Shown in pieces: positions 1,524-22,655 of a stretch of DNA of 45,010 nucleotides. Every line of letters starts with the position of its first letter. The stretch's first letter is position 1. The notes beneath the pieces were generated by a model. That model was not told the origin of the DNA, searched no databases, and saw only the letters and a program-made list of their open reading frames with translations. This DNA comes from Methylococcaceae bacterium (GTDB lineage Bacteria; Pseudomonadota; Gammaproteobacteria; Methylococcales; Methylomonadaceae). The translations under genes were made by a program, and so were the position numbers. The stretch is taken from assembly GCA_030626845.1 (NCBI GenBank), contig DAOUTG010000012.1:1-45010 (forward strand), read 5' to 3'.

Positions 1524-3464
1524 TTAGGCCTTCTCTTTTTCCTGAAAAGCTTCTATCCGCATTTCTTTAACAATAAACGCCAGCTCTTTTCGTTGTTGTT
1601 TTAAAGGTTCAAGTTCAGACCTAAGATGGGCAATATTTTCAGAAACGCTTCCCTTAGAGTCATTGATTTTTTTCAACATCTGTAAACGGCTTTCAATTTG
1701 TTTTTTATGGTCTTTAATTTGGTGCATTAGAGGAACTAAAACCCCATTACTCCATGTTAATGCATCTTTATAAGCCTGTTTTAAAATATTTCTCGCTTTT
1801 GCAATTAAAGTACTATAAAGTTTATTAACAACAACGCTTTGTTCTGTCATCGTTGTTTTTGCACTACTTCTAAAAGCCTCCCCTTCTGCAAAAATAGTTT
1901 CCAAGTCATCTTGATATTGTTTAATTGAAAATAATTTAGGCTCAATTTCTTTAAAACCATACTCATCATGAAACTTTTTGTGAATAGCTTTGACTAAACG
2001 ACGAGTTTCATTAGTAATATCAATTGAGTCTTGTAATAAATCACGTAAATCATCAAAAAGTTTGCTAATACTCTTTTTCATTCCAAAAGTTGTTAAACTT
2101 TTACTCATTTCACCTTTGGTTTCATGAATAATAATTTCTATTTTTTCTTTTGCAAATGATTCAATTAAAATTTTTGCTTGTACCGTGAAAACACGACGAC
2201 TTGCTTGAAAATTCTCAACGTTTGAGGTATAAGCTTTTTGTCTGTCTCGGGTTTCAGACATTAACTTATCTGTCATGTCTTTATTTTCAAAATCAACCTT
2301 TCTAAATTCGTCTAACTGTTTAGTTGCATTAACTAATTTCGAATCGGTCAAACTTGAAGACTCATTAATTAAAAAGCCAATATCCTTGAGAATAGTTGCC
2401 ATTAAAATCTTTCTGCGTTGCTTCAAAATGTCATTAGAAAGATAATGTTCTAAACCTTTCAAGCGACTTCGTTCTAATAAAGCATTATCTTTTTTAACTT
2501 TGGCTAATAAAGCCTGTTTTGCAGAAACTGGAAAAATTAAACTTTCTTTAAGTTTTAAAATAGAAGCAGAACTGCTAATTTGTTTTTTTATTGAATTTTC
2601 ATAACCTGTCTCACCCGCAAGATCATCCCACATAGAATCAATCTTATTCATGACGACAGCAAGACCTTGCTTATTATTACGCGCACTACAAATATGGTTT
2701 CGCCACATTTCAAGATCACTTTTAGTCACACCAGTATCGGCTGCAAGCACAAAAATAATCGCTTGCGCACTAGGTAACATACTTAAGGTTAATTCCGGTT
2801 CTGTTCCCAAAGCATTAAGCCCTGGTGTATCTAAAATAGATAAACCCTCCTCTAATAAAGGATGAGGGAAACTAATTAACGCATGTCGCCAACAGGGAAC
2901 TTCGACCTCAGTCGCATTAGAAAGTCCTTGTTCAGCTGCTTCATTCTCATTCCATAAGCCCAATTTATCCGCCATATCAACAGGGACTGTTTTAACAGCA
3001 ACCAGATGTTTAAAAGCCTCCTGCATTTGTGTTGGACTCTTACCCTCTAAAGAAATATGTTTCCATTTCTTAGGCATTTGCTTGTATTCTATTAACGACA
3101 AATCTTCAAGACGGGTACTAATATCTAAAACTCGTATATACGCCCCTTCTTTTTTATCAAAAAATATTTCAGTCGGACACATTGTTGTCCGTCCTGGCGA
3201 TGAAGGTAATAATCTAATACCCGTTTCTGCAAAGAATAAGGAATTAATTAATTCGGTCTTTCCACGCGAAAACTCTGCTGCAAATGCAAGCGTAATTCTA
3301 TCATTGTCTAAACCACTAAGAATATTCAATAAAGTATCCGTACTATGAACATCACTCATGCCATAACGCCGCCGCCACTCCCGATACATTTCGATAGAAC
3401 GCGCCAATTGTCCGCGCCATTGCGCGTACTCATGCAACTGTTCTTTGAATTTCAAATTCCCCAT
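1524..3464 (-). CDS. Dynamin family GTPase
   Basis: 646 aa. P-loop AEFSRGKTELINSL, switch TT, LDTPGLNA (G3), NKID (G4), coiled-coil C-terminal half. Confidence 0.85.
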   Translation of the reverse strand: MGNLKFKEQLHEYAQWRGQLARSIEMYREWRRRYGMSDVHSTDTLLNILSGLDNDRITLAFAAEFSRGKTELINSLFFAETGIRLLPSSPGRTTMCPTEIFFDKKEGAYIRVLDISTRLEDLSLIEYKQMPKKWKHISLEGKSPTQMQEAFKHLVAVKTVPVDMADKLGLWNENEAAEQGLSNATEVEVPCWRHALISFPHPLLEEGLSILDTPGLNALGTEPELTLSMLPSAQAIIFVLAADTGVTKSDLEMWRNHICSARNNKQGLAVVMNKIDSMWDDLAGETGYENSIKKQISSSASILKLKESLIFPVSAKQALLAKVKKDNALLERSRLKGLEHYLSNDILKQRRKILMATILKDIGFLINESSSLTDSKLVNATKQLDEFRKVDFENKDMTDKLMSETRDRQKAYTSNVENFQASRRVFTVQAKILIESFAKEKIEIIIHETKGEMSKSLTTFGMKKSISKLFDDLRDLLQDSIDITNETRRLVKAIHKKFHDEYGFKEIEPKLFSIKQYQDDLETIFAEGEAFRSSAKTTMTEQSVVVNKLYSTLIAKARNILKQAYKDALTWSNGVLVPLMHQIKDHKKQIESRLQMLKKINDSKGSVSENIAHLRSELEPLKQQRKELAFIVKEMRIEAFQEKEKA

Positions 3465-11266: not shown

Positions 11267-12169
11267 TTAACAACATATTAAAAATTCTAATAAGGCTTTT
11301 TGTGCATGAAGCCTATTTTCTGCTTCAATAAAAATCACACTTTGTTTACCATCTATGACTTCAGTCGCAACTTCTTCATTTCTATGTGCAGGTAAGCAGT
11401 GCATGAATAACGCATCCTTATTAGCCTGTGCCATTACTTTTGCATTGACCTGATAATTCTTAAAGGCTTGCTCACGCTTTTGTTGTTCTTGTTCTTGCCC
11501 CATACTAGCCCAAACATCAGTAACAATTAAATCAGCATTGTTTGCCGCTTCTTCAGGGGTATCAAATAATTGTATCCGTTCGTCTGCTGATTCTAAAATA
11601 GACCTAAGGGGTTGATAGTCTTTAGGCGTTGCAATATTAAGTTTAAAATCTAATAACATCGCTGCATTGATATAAGAATGGCACATATTATTGCCATCGC
11701 CTACCCAACAGACGGTTTTTTTTGCAATATCACCGCGTAATTCAAAATAAGTTTGCATATCAGCGAGTAGCTGGCAAGGATGTAACAAGTCGGTTAATGC
11801 GTTGATAATGGGAACACGTGAATGTTGTGCAAAGGTCGTTACGGTCGCATGGTCATAAGTGCGAATCATAATACAATCAACCATACTTGAAATAACTTTG
11901 GCACTATCAGCCAAAGGCTCTCCTCGTCCTAGTTGGGTATCTCTTGATGATAAAAATAAAGCACTTCCCCCTAATTGTGCCATGCCTGTCTCAAAGGAAA
12001 CACGAGTACGGGTTGATGATTTTTCAAAGATCATCGCTAATACTTTCCCTTTTAGCGGTTGAAAATCAGGATTACGATTATTTTTTAAGTCGATGGCTCT
12101 GGCAATTAATGCCCTAAATTCATCGCTGCTAAGGTCGTTCAAACTAATAAAGTGTCTTGGTTGAGTCAT
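11267..12169 (-). CDS. argF: Ornithine carbamoyltransferase
   Basis: [44 protein letters not shown]. Confidence 0.97.
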
Positions 12170-17891: not shown

Positions 17892-18233
17892 ATGTATACA
17901 CTTTATGGAATCACGAGTTGTAGTACGGTTACTAAAGCCCGCCGTTTTTTGGAAGAAAATAACTGTGATTATCAGTTTTATGATTTAAAAAAACAGCCTG
18001 TTACGATAAAGCTAATCAGTGAATTAGAAGCGCGAGTAGGTTGGGAGCTAATGCTTAATAAGCGCAGTACAACCTGGCGACAACTTGATGAAAATCAAAA
18101 AGAAGACGTGGATCAGCACAAGGCCATTACCTTAATGACTGAAAAACCCACTTTAATTAAACGTCCCTTATTGGATACGGGTGAAAATATATTACTCGGA
18201 TTTAAAACTGAAGCGTATCAAGAAATTTTATGA
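17892..18233 (+). CDS. ArsC/Spx-family reductase (YffB-like)
   Basis: YGITSCSTVTKARRFLEENN...LMLNKRSTTWRQL...PTLIKRPLLD; overlaps the dapE start, as in the yffB-dapE pair. Confidence 0.9.
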   Translation: MYTLYGITSCSTVTKARRFLEENNCDYQFYDLKKQPVTIKLISELEARVGWELMLNKRSTTWRQLDENQKEDVDQHKAITLMTEKPTLIKRPLLDTGENILLGFKTEAYQEIL

Positions 18234-19357
18234 GTGAAACATTAACTTTATTAGAAGATTTAATTAAACGTGAATCAGTTACTCCGCTTGATGCAGGTTG
18301 TCAGGCTGTATTAGTTCAACGTTTAAGTCAGTTTGGTTTTAAAGAAGAGCGTTTAGATTTTGGAGACACTCAAAATATTTGGCTTAGACGTGGAAAGGCG
18401 AAACCCTTATTTGTTTTTTTAGGACATACGGATGTTGTCCCTACGGGGGATTTAGACGCATGGGATTTTCCACCGTTTGAACCGACAATTAAAGAAGGTT
18501 TGCTTTACGGCCGTGGCACTGCGGATATGAAAGGGGGAATTGCTTGTTTTATCACTGCGGTAGAACGTTTTGTTCAACAATATCCCGATCATCAAGGCTC
18601 AATTGCATTAATGATTACTAGTGATGAAGAAGGGTGTGCAAAAAATGGCGTGGTTAAAGTTGTTGATGTTTTAGAGCAACGAGGTGAAAAAATTGATTGG
18701 TGTTTGGTCGGTGAGCCTTCAAGTGAAAAACAAGTGGGTGATGTGATTAAAGTAGGGCGGCGCGGATCTTTATGCGCGGTTTTAACCATTCATGGCATAC
18801 AAGGGCATGTTGCCTATCCTCATAAAGCGGATAATCCCATTCATAATTTTGCGCCTGCATTAAAAACATTAACCGAAGAAATTTGGGATCAGGGAAATCA
18901 ATTTTTTCCACCGACAAGCTTACAAGTTTCTAATATTAATAGCGGAACGGGCGCTGAAAATATTATTCCTGGTGATCTTGAAGTCCTGTTTAATCTACGT
19001 TTTTCGACAGAATTAAATGCTGATATTATCAAACAACGAGTTCATGCCATTTTAGATCAATATTCATTTGATTATGATTTAGACTGGCGATTATCTGGAA
19101 ATCCTTTTTTAACTTCCAGCGGCGCATTGATTGATGCAGCCCATGATGCGATTAAAAAAGTAACAGGACTTCAGACTTTAGATGATACAGGGGGGGGGAC
19201 TTCGGACGGGCGTTTTATTGCACCGACAGGGGCTGAGATTATTGAACTAGGACATCTAAATAGCACTATTCATAAAGTCAATGAAAATATAGCGGTGGCT
19301 GATTTAGAAGTTTTAAGTGAAATTTATCAGAGGATGTTAGAGGGTTTGTTGAATTAA
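18230..19357 (+). CDS. dapE: Succinyl-diaminopimelate desuccinylase
   Basis: FLGHTDVVPTGDLDAWDFPPFEP, GRGTADMKGGIACF, SDEEGCAKNG, DDTGGGTSDGRFI. Confidence 0.96.
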   Translation: MSETLTLLEDLIKRESVTPLDAGCQAVLVQRLSQFGFKEERLDFGDTQNIWLRRGKAKPLFVFLGHTDVVPTGDLDAWDFPPFEPTIKEGLLYGRGTADMKGGIACFITAVERFVQQYPDHQGSIALMITSDEEGCAKNGVVKVVDVLEQRGEKIDWCLVGEPSSEKQVGDVIKVGRRGSLCAVLTIHGIQGHVAYPHKADNPIHNFAPALKTLTEEIWDQGNQFFPPTSLQVSNINSGTGAENIIPGDLEVLFNLRFSTELNADIIKQRVHAILDQYSFDYDLDWRLSGNPFLTSSGALIDAAHDAIKKVTGLQTLDDTGGGTSDGRFIAPTGAEIIELGHLNSTIHKVNENIAVADLEVLSEIYQRMLEGLLN

Positions 19358-19417: not shown

Positions 19418-19594
19418 GTAACTACTTAGGTTATTATTTACTAGGCTATAGAGAAACTTATAGAGAGTAGCCCATATGTAGCTTGCGAAATACGGGGTGT
19501 TTGGCAAAATGTTTTATGATATTTTTAACAAATGATTGTACCCCCTCCCATATTCCGCAAGCTACATACGGGCTACAACTACCTGAGTAGTTAC
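19418..19594. repeat. Nested imperfect inverted-repeat (MITE-like) element
   Basis: Outer arms GTAACTACTTAGGT (19418-19431) and ACCTGAGTAGTTAC (19581-19594). Inner arms TAGCCCATATGTAGCTTGCGAAATACGGGG (19468-19497) and CCCCCTCCCATATTCCGCAAGCTACATACGGGCTA (19541-19575). Confidence 0.7.
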
Positions 19595-19904: not shown

Positions 19905-21149
19905 ATGACACAGGTTTTACAAAAAGGAGCAAATGCTTTATTAACGAATGGTAATGAAGTATTAATTAAAATAGAGTGGTTAAAAAAACAAGATAATGAA
20001 GTTGATCTTGATATTGACGCTAGTGCTTTTATGCTAACTAAAAATAATAAAATTAGACGTGATGAAGATTTCATTTTTTATAACCAATTAAAATCACTAG
20101 GCAGTTCTTTGGAGTTAATACCAGCAACAGAAACCTATACTCAAAACTTTAAAGTTTTACTTAATAAAATTGATTCGAGTATTGATAAAATTGCTTTTGT
20201 TTTAACGATTCATGAAGCGCAGGAGCGACAGCAAAACTTTGGGATACTTGATAAAATAATTATTAGAATACTCAATCCAGTTAGTAAAATTGAATTACTT
20301 AGCTACGTTTTAGATAATGCAATAAAAGAAACAGCTCTTATTTTAGGAGAAGTATATCGCTACAATAGTGAATGGAAATTTAAAGCTATTGGTCAAGGCT
20401 ATATTAATGGCTTAGATGTATTGGCTAATAATTTTGGTGTAAATATTGGTGACTCAAACCCAAACTCAGATAAGCCCTCAGCACCGAAAAATCCCATTAT
20501 TATTAAGTATATTGAAGCAATAAAGCCTAACATATCAAAATTTGCCACGAAAGCTAAAAGAGCAAAGCGTGACAGATTAAATGAGTCAGGCACACGTATA
20601 ATTATTGATAGTATTTTGCAAGATATTTTAGGTTATAAATTACAACACATTAAAACAGAGCATAGAATCCCTAATCGACGCTTACGAATAGATTATTTAA
20701 TTTCAATTAATGAGAAGCCAATTATAGCCGTTGAAGCAAAGCATATTAATCAGAATTTAGGCGAAAGGCATATTTCACAAGCAACTTCTTATGCTTATTA
20801 CATGAAATTAAACTTTGCTTTATTAACTAATGGAATTGAATGGCAACTCTATTATGTTATTCCAAAACGATTAAAAAAATATGAATATCATCATGTTTTC
20901 ACGCTTGATCTTTTAAATTTTAATCACACAGTGGGGGAACAATTATTTAAAATTTCTAGGTTTGGTTTTTTAGAACAAAGTTTAGAAACTATTAAAAATA
21001 AAATGGATACTTTAAATAGGATTGATGATGTTCTTTTAATGGAAGATATTTTAGAAAAAATCACCAATACGGTTAATCAAAAAGGTTCACAAGGGAACGT
21101 AACTTCTATTGAAGTTCGTGATTTTATAGAAAATAATATTTTACAATAA
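19905..21149 (+). CDS. TerD-domain / type I restriction HsdR_N-like nuclease fusion
   Basis: N-terminus VLQKGANALL...VDLDIDASAFMLTKNNKIRRDEDFIFYNQLKS...YRYNSEWKFKAIGQGY (TerD). C-terminus RRLRIDYLISINEKPIIAVEAKHINQNLGERHISQATSYAYYMKLNFALLTNGIEWQLYYV (HSDR_N, D...ExK). Confidence 0.88.
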   Translation: MTQVLQKGANALLTNGNEVLIKIEWLKKQDNEVDLDIDASAFMLTKNNKIRRDEDFIFYNQLKSLGSSLELIPATETYTQNFKVLLNKIDSSIDKIAFVLTIHEAQERQQNFGILDKIIIRILNPVSKIELLSYVLDNAIKETALILGEVYRYNSEWKFKAIGQGYINGLDVLANNFGVNIGDSNPNSDKPSAPKNPIIIKYIEAIKPNISKFATKAKRAKRDRLNESGTRIIIDSILQDILGYKLQHIKTEHRIPNRRLRIDYLISINEKPIIAVEAKHINQNLGERHISQATSYAYYMKLNFALLTNGIEWQLYYVIPKRLKKYEYHHVFTLDLLNFNHTVGEQLFKISRFGFLEQSLETIKNKMDTLNRIDDVLLMEDILEKITNTVNQKGSQGNVTSIEVRDFIENNILQ

Positions 21150-21269: not shown

Positions 21270-22655
21270 ATGTCCAACACATTAACTTTTTCCAATCTTC
21301 CTTTATCGCCACAATTACTTGATAACCTGACTTCTTTAGGTTATTTGAATATGACAGCTATTCAGGCACAAGGTTTACCTCATGTTTTAGCAGGTAAAGA
21401 TTTAATTGCAAAGGCAAAAACAGGCAGTGGCAAAACAGCTACATTTGGATTAGGTTTACTGCAACAAATCAACCCGCGTTTTTTTGGCATACAAGCGATG
21501 ATACTCTGTCCTACGCGTGAATTAGCAGACCAAGTAGGTAAAGAATTGCGACGACTCGCGCGTGCGATTCCAAATATAAAAGTCGTAATGCTTACGGGGG
21601 GCAAGCCTTTTCATCCTCAAAAAAGTTCCCTTGAATACGGCGCGCATATAGTCGTTGGCACGCCAGGTCGAATACAAGACCATCTCAGTAAACAAACTTT
21701 AGAGTTGAAAGATTTACAAACTTTAGTGCTTGACGAGGCAGATAGAATGCTAGACATGGGCTTTAGTCAAGAAATTAATCATATCATTTCTCAAACACCT
21801 AAAACTAGACAAACTTTATTATTTTCAGCAACTTATCCAGACTCTATTAATCAAATGAGTCATGCTATTTTAAAAGATCCTATTACTATTCATGTGGAAG
21901 CCGAACACCATAATGAGGTGATTGAACAGATTTTCTATCAGACTAATCAAAAAGAACGTCAAAAAGACCTTCTAAATTTATTTCAACATTACCAGCCTGA
22001 GAATAGTTTAGTCTTTTGTCACACTAAAATACAATGTAATGAAATTGCCCAAAGCTTACGTCAAAATAATATTCAAGCCTTAGCACTTCATGGTGATTTG
22101 GAACAACGTGAACGAGATCAAATATTATTAAGATTTACTAATCATAGTTGTGCCGTTCTCGTTGCAACGGATGTCGCTGCCCGAGGTTTAGATATTAAAT
22201 CCTTACAAGCGGTGATTAACTATGAATTGCCTCATGACCCTGAAATTTATATCCATCGTATTGGACGTACAGGCCGAGCGGGTGAAAAAGGGATTGCCCT
22301 GAGTTTATTTACGTCCTCTGAAAAATTAAGATTAGAAAGTATTACTACTTTTCAAAATAAAGAAGCAAAAATAGGTCAATTGAAAAATCTTAATCAACAA
22401 AAAGAATTTTCATTACACGCCCCTATGGTTACTATTCAATTTGATGCAGGACGAAAAGCTAAAATTAGAGCGGGTGATATCTTAGGGGCATTAACAGGTG
22501 ATGCAGGTTTATCAAATTCTCAAATTGGTAAAATTGATATTTTTGATATTGTTAGTCATGTTGCGGTTGAAAAACAAGCCTTGCCCACGGTTTTAAACTA
22601 TTTTGCTAATGGCAAAATTAAAGGGCGATTCGTCAAAGCACGTAAAATGGGTTAA
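21270..22655 (+). CDS. dbpA: ATP-dependent RNA helicase DbpA
   Basis: AKTGSGKT, VLDEADRMLDMGF, SATYP, HRIGRTGRAGEKG; C-terminal RNA-binding domain AKIRAGDILGALTGDAGLSNSQIGKIDIFD. Confidence 0.95.
   Translation: MSNTLTFSNLPLSPQLLDNLTSLGYLNMTAIQAQGLPHVLAGKDLIAKAKTGSGKTATFGLGLLQQINPRFFGIQAMILCPTRELADQVGKELRRLARAIPNIKVVMLTGGKPFHPQKSSLEYGAHIVVGTPGRIQDHLSKQTLELKDLQTLVLDEADRMLDMGFSQEINHIISQTPKTRQTLLFSATYPDSINQMSHAILKDPITIHVEAEHHNEVIEQIFYQTNQKERQKDLLNLFQHYQPENSLVFCHTKIQCNEIAQSLRQNNIQALALHGDLEQRERDQILLRFTNHSCAVLVATDVAARGLDIKSLQAVINYELPHDPEIYIHRIGRTGRAGEKGIALSLFTSSEKLRLESITTFQNKEAKIGQLKNLNQQKEFSLHAPMVTIQFDAGRKAKIRAGDILGALTGDAGLSNSQIGKIDIFDIVSHVAVEKQALPTVLNYFANGKIKGRFVKARKMG

Follow-up and report, generated by a model that had tools for sequence, protein, structure and literature searches.

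A gene joining TerD to a PD-(D/E)XK nuclease domain in Methylomonadaceae: a candidate TerD-controlled effector

Results

One open reading frame joins a TerD domain to an HsdR_N-type module

The window, by which we mean the whole 45,010 nt stretch of DNA that was analysed, contains an uninterrupted open reading frame with an ATG start that lies between a dapE-like gene (18230-19357) and a DEAD-box helicase gene (21270-22655). The features of this locus are as follows.

19467..19576, unstranded: 30-nt inverted repeats, 50 nt spacing, upstream of the fusion gene; copies at other genomic sites are partial
19905..21149, + strand: TerD-PD-(D/E)XK (HSDR_N_2) fusion gene, 414 aa (ORF, Pfam, full-length homologues)
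19905..20435, + strand: TerD domain, residues 1-177; DIDASAF retained, without the canonical acidic Ca2+ loop (Pfam PF02342, loop comparison)
20436..20492, + strand: variable linker, residues 178-196, low-confidence in the model (alignment; pLDDT <50 over 165-195)
20493..20858, + strand: nuclease core, residues 197-318, with the HSDR_N_2 match at 231-318 (Pfam, AlphaFold2, Foldseek)
20691..20741, + strand: catalytic motif, D263 (20691-20693), E277 (20733-20735) and K279 (20739-20741)
20778..20780, + strand: Q292, in a QxxxY motif typical of HsdR/RecB-type nucleases (alignments)
20922..21146, + strand: C-terminal helical part, residues 340-414, common to standalone relatives (alignments, secondary structure)

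An earlier note on this DNA, made from the letters alone, had described a single 414-aa ORF joining TerD to a PD-(D/E)XK HsdR_N-type module. Pfam bears this out, with both matches above cut-off: TerD (E 4.5e-52; 176.7 bits against a cut-off of 25.3) and HSDR_N_2 (PF13588; E 5.6e-10; 39.7 bits against a cut-off of 25). There is a further match to HSDR_N (PF04313) at residues 257-316 (E 1.2e-6), and the accession for TerD is PF02342 rather than the PF02325 given in the note. The best PDB sequence matches of the fusion are the TerD structures 2kxt (E 6e-38) and 3ibz (E 2e-33), with a weak match to HsdR 3h1t. As the note had also read, Pfam finds no motor domain in the protein, and no HsdM, HsdS or ter gene adjoins the fusion in the window.

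We considered mobility by way of the upstream inverted repeat; since the other copies in this genome are partial, this gave no firm link to the fusion. The same window also encodes a dynamin-family GTPase of 646 aa (1524-3464(-); Dynamin_N E 6.8e-14).

The C-terminal half has the motif and predicted fold of a restriction-type nuclease

Residues 192-414 were modelled with high confidence by AlphaFold2 (pLDDT 91.3, pTM 0.82). The top solved Foldseek matches of this half are HsdR 3h1t (prob 1.00, E 1.7e-3) and Cas4 4r5q (prob 0.99, E 0.01), the E-values being modest, and among viral models it comes closest to an HsdR-N protein from a phage (E 7e-9). D263, E277 and K279 are unchanged in all six complete fusions, so that the D...ExK residues by which the earlier note would have its proposal judged are retained; across 24 aligned nuclease modules, E277 and K279 never vary, and D263 and Q292 hardly do. 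Relatives that stand alone, 250-300 aa in length, are widespread, being found in Planctomycetota, Elusimicrobiota, Verrucomicrobiota and Gammaproteobacteria; they match nearly the entire C-terminal half of the fusion, and TerD is absent from all those checked. Thermus phage Riverbug encodes a protein that is related to the nuclease half (26% identical) and annotated as a restriction endonuclease (PQ109080.1, 31112-31780). By profile, motif and modelled fold, the C-terminal half is an HSDR_N_2-type PD-(D/E)XK nuclease, for which cleavage is predicted.

The TerD half has lost most of the known Ca2+ ligands

By profile and modelled fold, the N-terminal half is a member of the TerD family: it resembles 2kxt and 3ibz (Foldseek prob 1.00) in a part of the model that is only moderately confident. 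Together with the match of the other half to 3h1t, this is the fold that the earlier note had anticipated, TerD-like N-terminally and HsdR-like C-terminally. Its description of the TerD domain as full is right for the extent of the PF02342 match and wrong for the acidic GDNxTGxGxGDDE loop of canonical TerD, which is missing from the fusion. Of 47 short TerD ORFs, 44 have this loop; all 32 long ones lack it.

In KP-TerD the Ca2+ ligands are residues 40, 41, 42, 78, 79 and 89, and 29, 82, 84 and 88 (PMC8779313), a set that is a trait of canonical TerD and not of every member of the PF02342 profile family. In our alignment, positions 29 and 40-42 are retained in the fusion as W25, D36, I37 and D38, whereas positions 78, 79, 88 and 89 are A, T, T and Q, and positions 82 and 84 are deleted. 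Because most ligand positions and the acidic loop are lost, KP-TerD-like Ca2+ binding is not expected, and the Ca2+ gating suggested by the earlier note is disfavoured. The fusion head may have metal sites of another kind, and with the loss of the acidic loop it may no longer sense the cue of canonical TerD.

The fusion is rare, found in one family and under purifying selection

The earlier note had asked for further proteins of the same architecture, and we found the fusion in six other genomes, five times complete (34-80% identical) and once cut by a contig end; this recurrence rules out an assembly artefact or a chance join. Clade A comprises the window's protein and those of a genome of the same genus (80% identical), Crenothrix sp. 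D3 (58%), a Methylococcales MAG (56%) and G480 (58%). The divergent clade B is represented by a complete copy in G519 (34% identical) and by one that runs off its contig in G583; for a fragment in G541, only the nuclease part is visible. A single clade of TerD-HSDR fusions was not rejected for either the nuclease half (p 0.33) or the TerD half (p 0.23), and the fusion may have arisen once or twice.

Confirmed fusions occur in 7 of 237 genomes, all of them Methylomonadaceae. Outside the family there were none in a non-exhaustive sample of the class (369 genomes, judged on fetched loci) or in a likewise non-exhaustive sample of the phylum (399 genomes), and none was carried by the viral contigs, phage records or plasmids searched. 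The neighbours of the fusion vary by genome, and the site is different in each. The defence-island setting that the earlier note had led us to look for did not appear, with no convincing PADLOC match among the ten flanking genes of four homologues. The Crenothrix fusion has a leucine-rich-repeat gene and an apparent truncated transposase as neighbours (L025:8224-8952(-) and 11350-11901(+)).

Comparison with the sister genome gave a dN/dS of 0.18 in the TerD half and 0.09 in the nuclease half; with the more distant copies it is 0.16-0.29, a rough estimate with dS near saturation. Judged by these substitution rates, the fusion protein is maintained as a unit under purifying selection on both halves. 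We found no paper describing a TerD-HSDR_N_2 fusion, in a literature search that ran without the key 2012 Ter survey, and to that extent the fusion is uncharacterised, as had been supposed.

TerD heads are also joined to other effector-like domains

Four genomes of this family, G030, G026, G051 and G004, encode TerD joined to a Card1-type nuclease (PF09002); the Card1 domain is above the Pfam cut-off in G026 and G051 and just below it in G030 and G004. G026 and G051 each carry both the TerD-HSDR and the TerD-Card1 type. In the G026 protein, the PADLOC match to CARF4-PDDEXK is confined to the nuclease half (residues 223-353 of 364, E 5e-13). From the sequence, TerD seems to occupy the usual position of the CARF sensor in these proteins. 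TerD was found joined to these nucleases and to other domains at the following loci.

L028:5894-7438(+), L029:2619-3959(-), L027:6438-7919(-), L126:2157-3872(-): TerD and Card1-type nuclease; one in the window's genus
L081:1785-5120(-): TerD and dynamin-like GTPase, about 1100 aa
L143:303-2048(-), L144:665-2362(-), L146:1542-3329(+): TerD and FtsK/SpoIIIE motor; three genomes from other classes of this phylum
L147:10-2265(-): TerD and TerC in one 752-aa ORF
L089:2825-3976(+): TerD, then a hydrophobic, apparently transmembrane region

Joins of TerD to vWA were found as well. Clade A heads and three of the Card1-type heads fall into one group with support of 99/99, which covers the group and not its internal order; the Card1-type head of G030 and the HSDR-type head of G480, which belong to one genus, are both short branches within it. 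Nucleases have thus been exchanged under related TerD heads, which argues for the head as a control domain open to reuse. The joins suggest a modular role for TerD, as a switch that can be plugged into various effectors, possibly anti-phage ones.

Ter enzymes are encoded elsewhere in the genome

Comparative work has put forward a nucleoside or nucleotide derivative, the product of Ter-associated enzymes, as the signal sensed by TerD and TerB (PMC7824862); TerD also appears in a published list of proteins that bind nucleotide derivatives (PMC7159879). The window's genome encodes a PRTase_2-TRSP protein and a StiP-PELOTA_1 homologue, which lie on contigs other than that of the fusion (C17 and C7, respectively), with TerB and further TerD genes elsewhere. 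Both Ter enzymes are present in every clade A genome, the PRTase_2 match being weaker in G001, a distribution consistent with a signal made in trans. In the window's genome, the PRTase_2-TRSP gene (L121:7070-8824(+)) has no TerD gene nearby and adjoins an apparent Uma2-type nuclease gene.

Discussion

We propose as the likeliest reading, at about even odds, that the fusion may be a TerD-controlled PD-(D/E)XK nuclease effector that is complete in a single protein and acts by analogy with Card1/Can2. What we infer for it, namely nuclease activity, gating, a cue and a defence outcome, would run as follows. In an unstressed cell the nuclease would be kept inactive under the TerD head; once the head had bound its cue, the nuclease would cut DNA, either incoming or the cell's own, and the spread of a phage or plasmid would be stopped or the cell arrested. 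A candidate for the cue is the product of the Ter biosynthetic genes, whose enzymes are encoded elsewhere in the genome, or another Ter protein. The idea of sensor plus effector is made stronger by the presence of related heads on a Card1-type nuclease and of TerD on dynamin, FtsK and TerC. Several observations count against this reading: the fusion is rare; no ter or defence genes lie beside it in any genome viewed; PADLOC does not recognise it, giving two weak sub-matches to nuclease models only; contact between head and nuclease is not readable from the whole-protein model (pTM 0.52); and neither Ter enzyme is present in the draft genomes with the clade B pieces, G583 and G541.

An unlikely though credible alternative is that the TerD head tethers rather than gates, docking the nuclease on a membrane-linked Ter assembly where entering DNA would be cut with no ligand switch. 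Components at and beneath the membrane have been described for Ter systems (PMC7824862). Some TerD domains are fused to partners that are themselves in or linked to the membrane (TerC in L147, dynamin in L081 and the hydrophobic region in L089), and the variable linker would suit a tether. Against tethering, ter genes are absent beside the fusion, and related heads are found on a nuclease of the Card1 type, which in its known form is ligand-gated. Rather improbable, in our judgement, is a nuclease for DNA repair or processing after metal or oxidative damage, with no role in defence. The link of TerD proteins to oxidative, metal and UV stress (PMC8123226) and the housekeeping genes next to the fusion would fit such a role; its rare and patchy occurrence in the family, at a site that differs per genome, and the restriction-type fold of its nuclease half do not. 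That the gene is the remnant of a type I restriction subunit, or a decayed one, that happened to become joined to TerD is hardly credible, even though HSDR_N-type profiles are the sole nuclease matches above the Pfam cut-off, and we reject it because the fusion lacks a motor domain and HsdM/HsdS, its closest relatives are standalone 250-300 aa nucleases and not HsdR subunits, it is under purifying selection and its catalytic residues are intact.

The idea of a TerD-controlled effector can be widened, doubtfully, to TerD as an all-purpose sensor head in the manner of CARF or SAVED, which would be mounted on nucleases, dynamins, FtsK motors and TerC and would read a nucleoside-like messenger from the Ter enzymes; Ter systems would then be a separate second-messenger immune pathway with nucleases as direct effectors. 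What cue TerD senses, and how Ter systems act on phages, colicins and tellurite, is a long-standing question. A TerD head wired to a nuclease would offer a simple read-out, in that finding the activator of the nuclease would mean finding the ligand of TerD.

Relation to known systems

With the Ter-dependent stress and anti-phage systems, as papers citing Anantharaman et al. (2012) describe them, the fusion shares TerD, and PRTase_2-TRSP and StiP-PELOTA are encoded in its genome; it differs in that these components lie on other contigs and the fusion stands alone. With TerD, TerE and TerZ (PF02342) it has in common a clear family match, the fold and the DIDASAF motif, but it has a nuclease, and neither a ter operon nor the acidic Ca2+ loop. 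TerF (TerD plus vWA) likewise has an N-terminal TerD head followed by a different C-terminal domain and has also lost the acidic loop; there, vWA takes the place of the nuclease, and ter clusters include some genes of the TerF type (L082) but not the fusion.

The fold and motif are those of the N-terminal nuclease of HsdR (HSDR_N/HSDR_N_2), with 3h1t as the best solved match. The fusion is far shorter than HsdR and, lacking the SF2 helicase motor and adjacent HsdM/HsdS, it does not count as the R subunit of a type I restriction system. The standalone HSDR_N_2 nucleases of Phycisphaerae, Elusimicrobia, Verrucomicrobia, Gammaproteobacteria and a Thermus phage align with nearly the whole C-terminal half and share its catalytic residues, but they are about 20-32% identical and have no TerD. 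Lastly, a PADLOC scan found no CARF family in the fusion, the N-terminus being TerD by Pfam, and because it has no CARF the fusion falls outside the Card1/Can2 family, with TerD in place of CARF and a nuclease of the HSDR_N_2 rather than the Card1 type. It nonetheless resembles Card1/Can2 in combining a sensor domain and a PD-(D/E)XK nuclease in one protein, and the same bacteria encode a sibling fusion of TerD with the Card1-type nuclease itself (PF09002).
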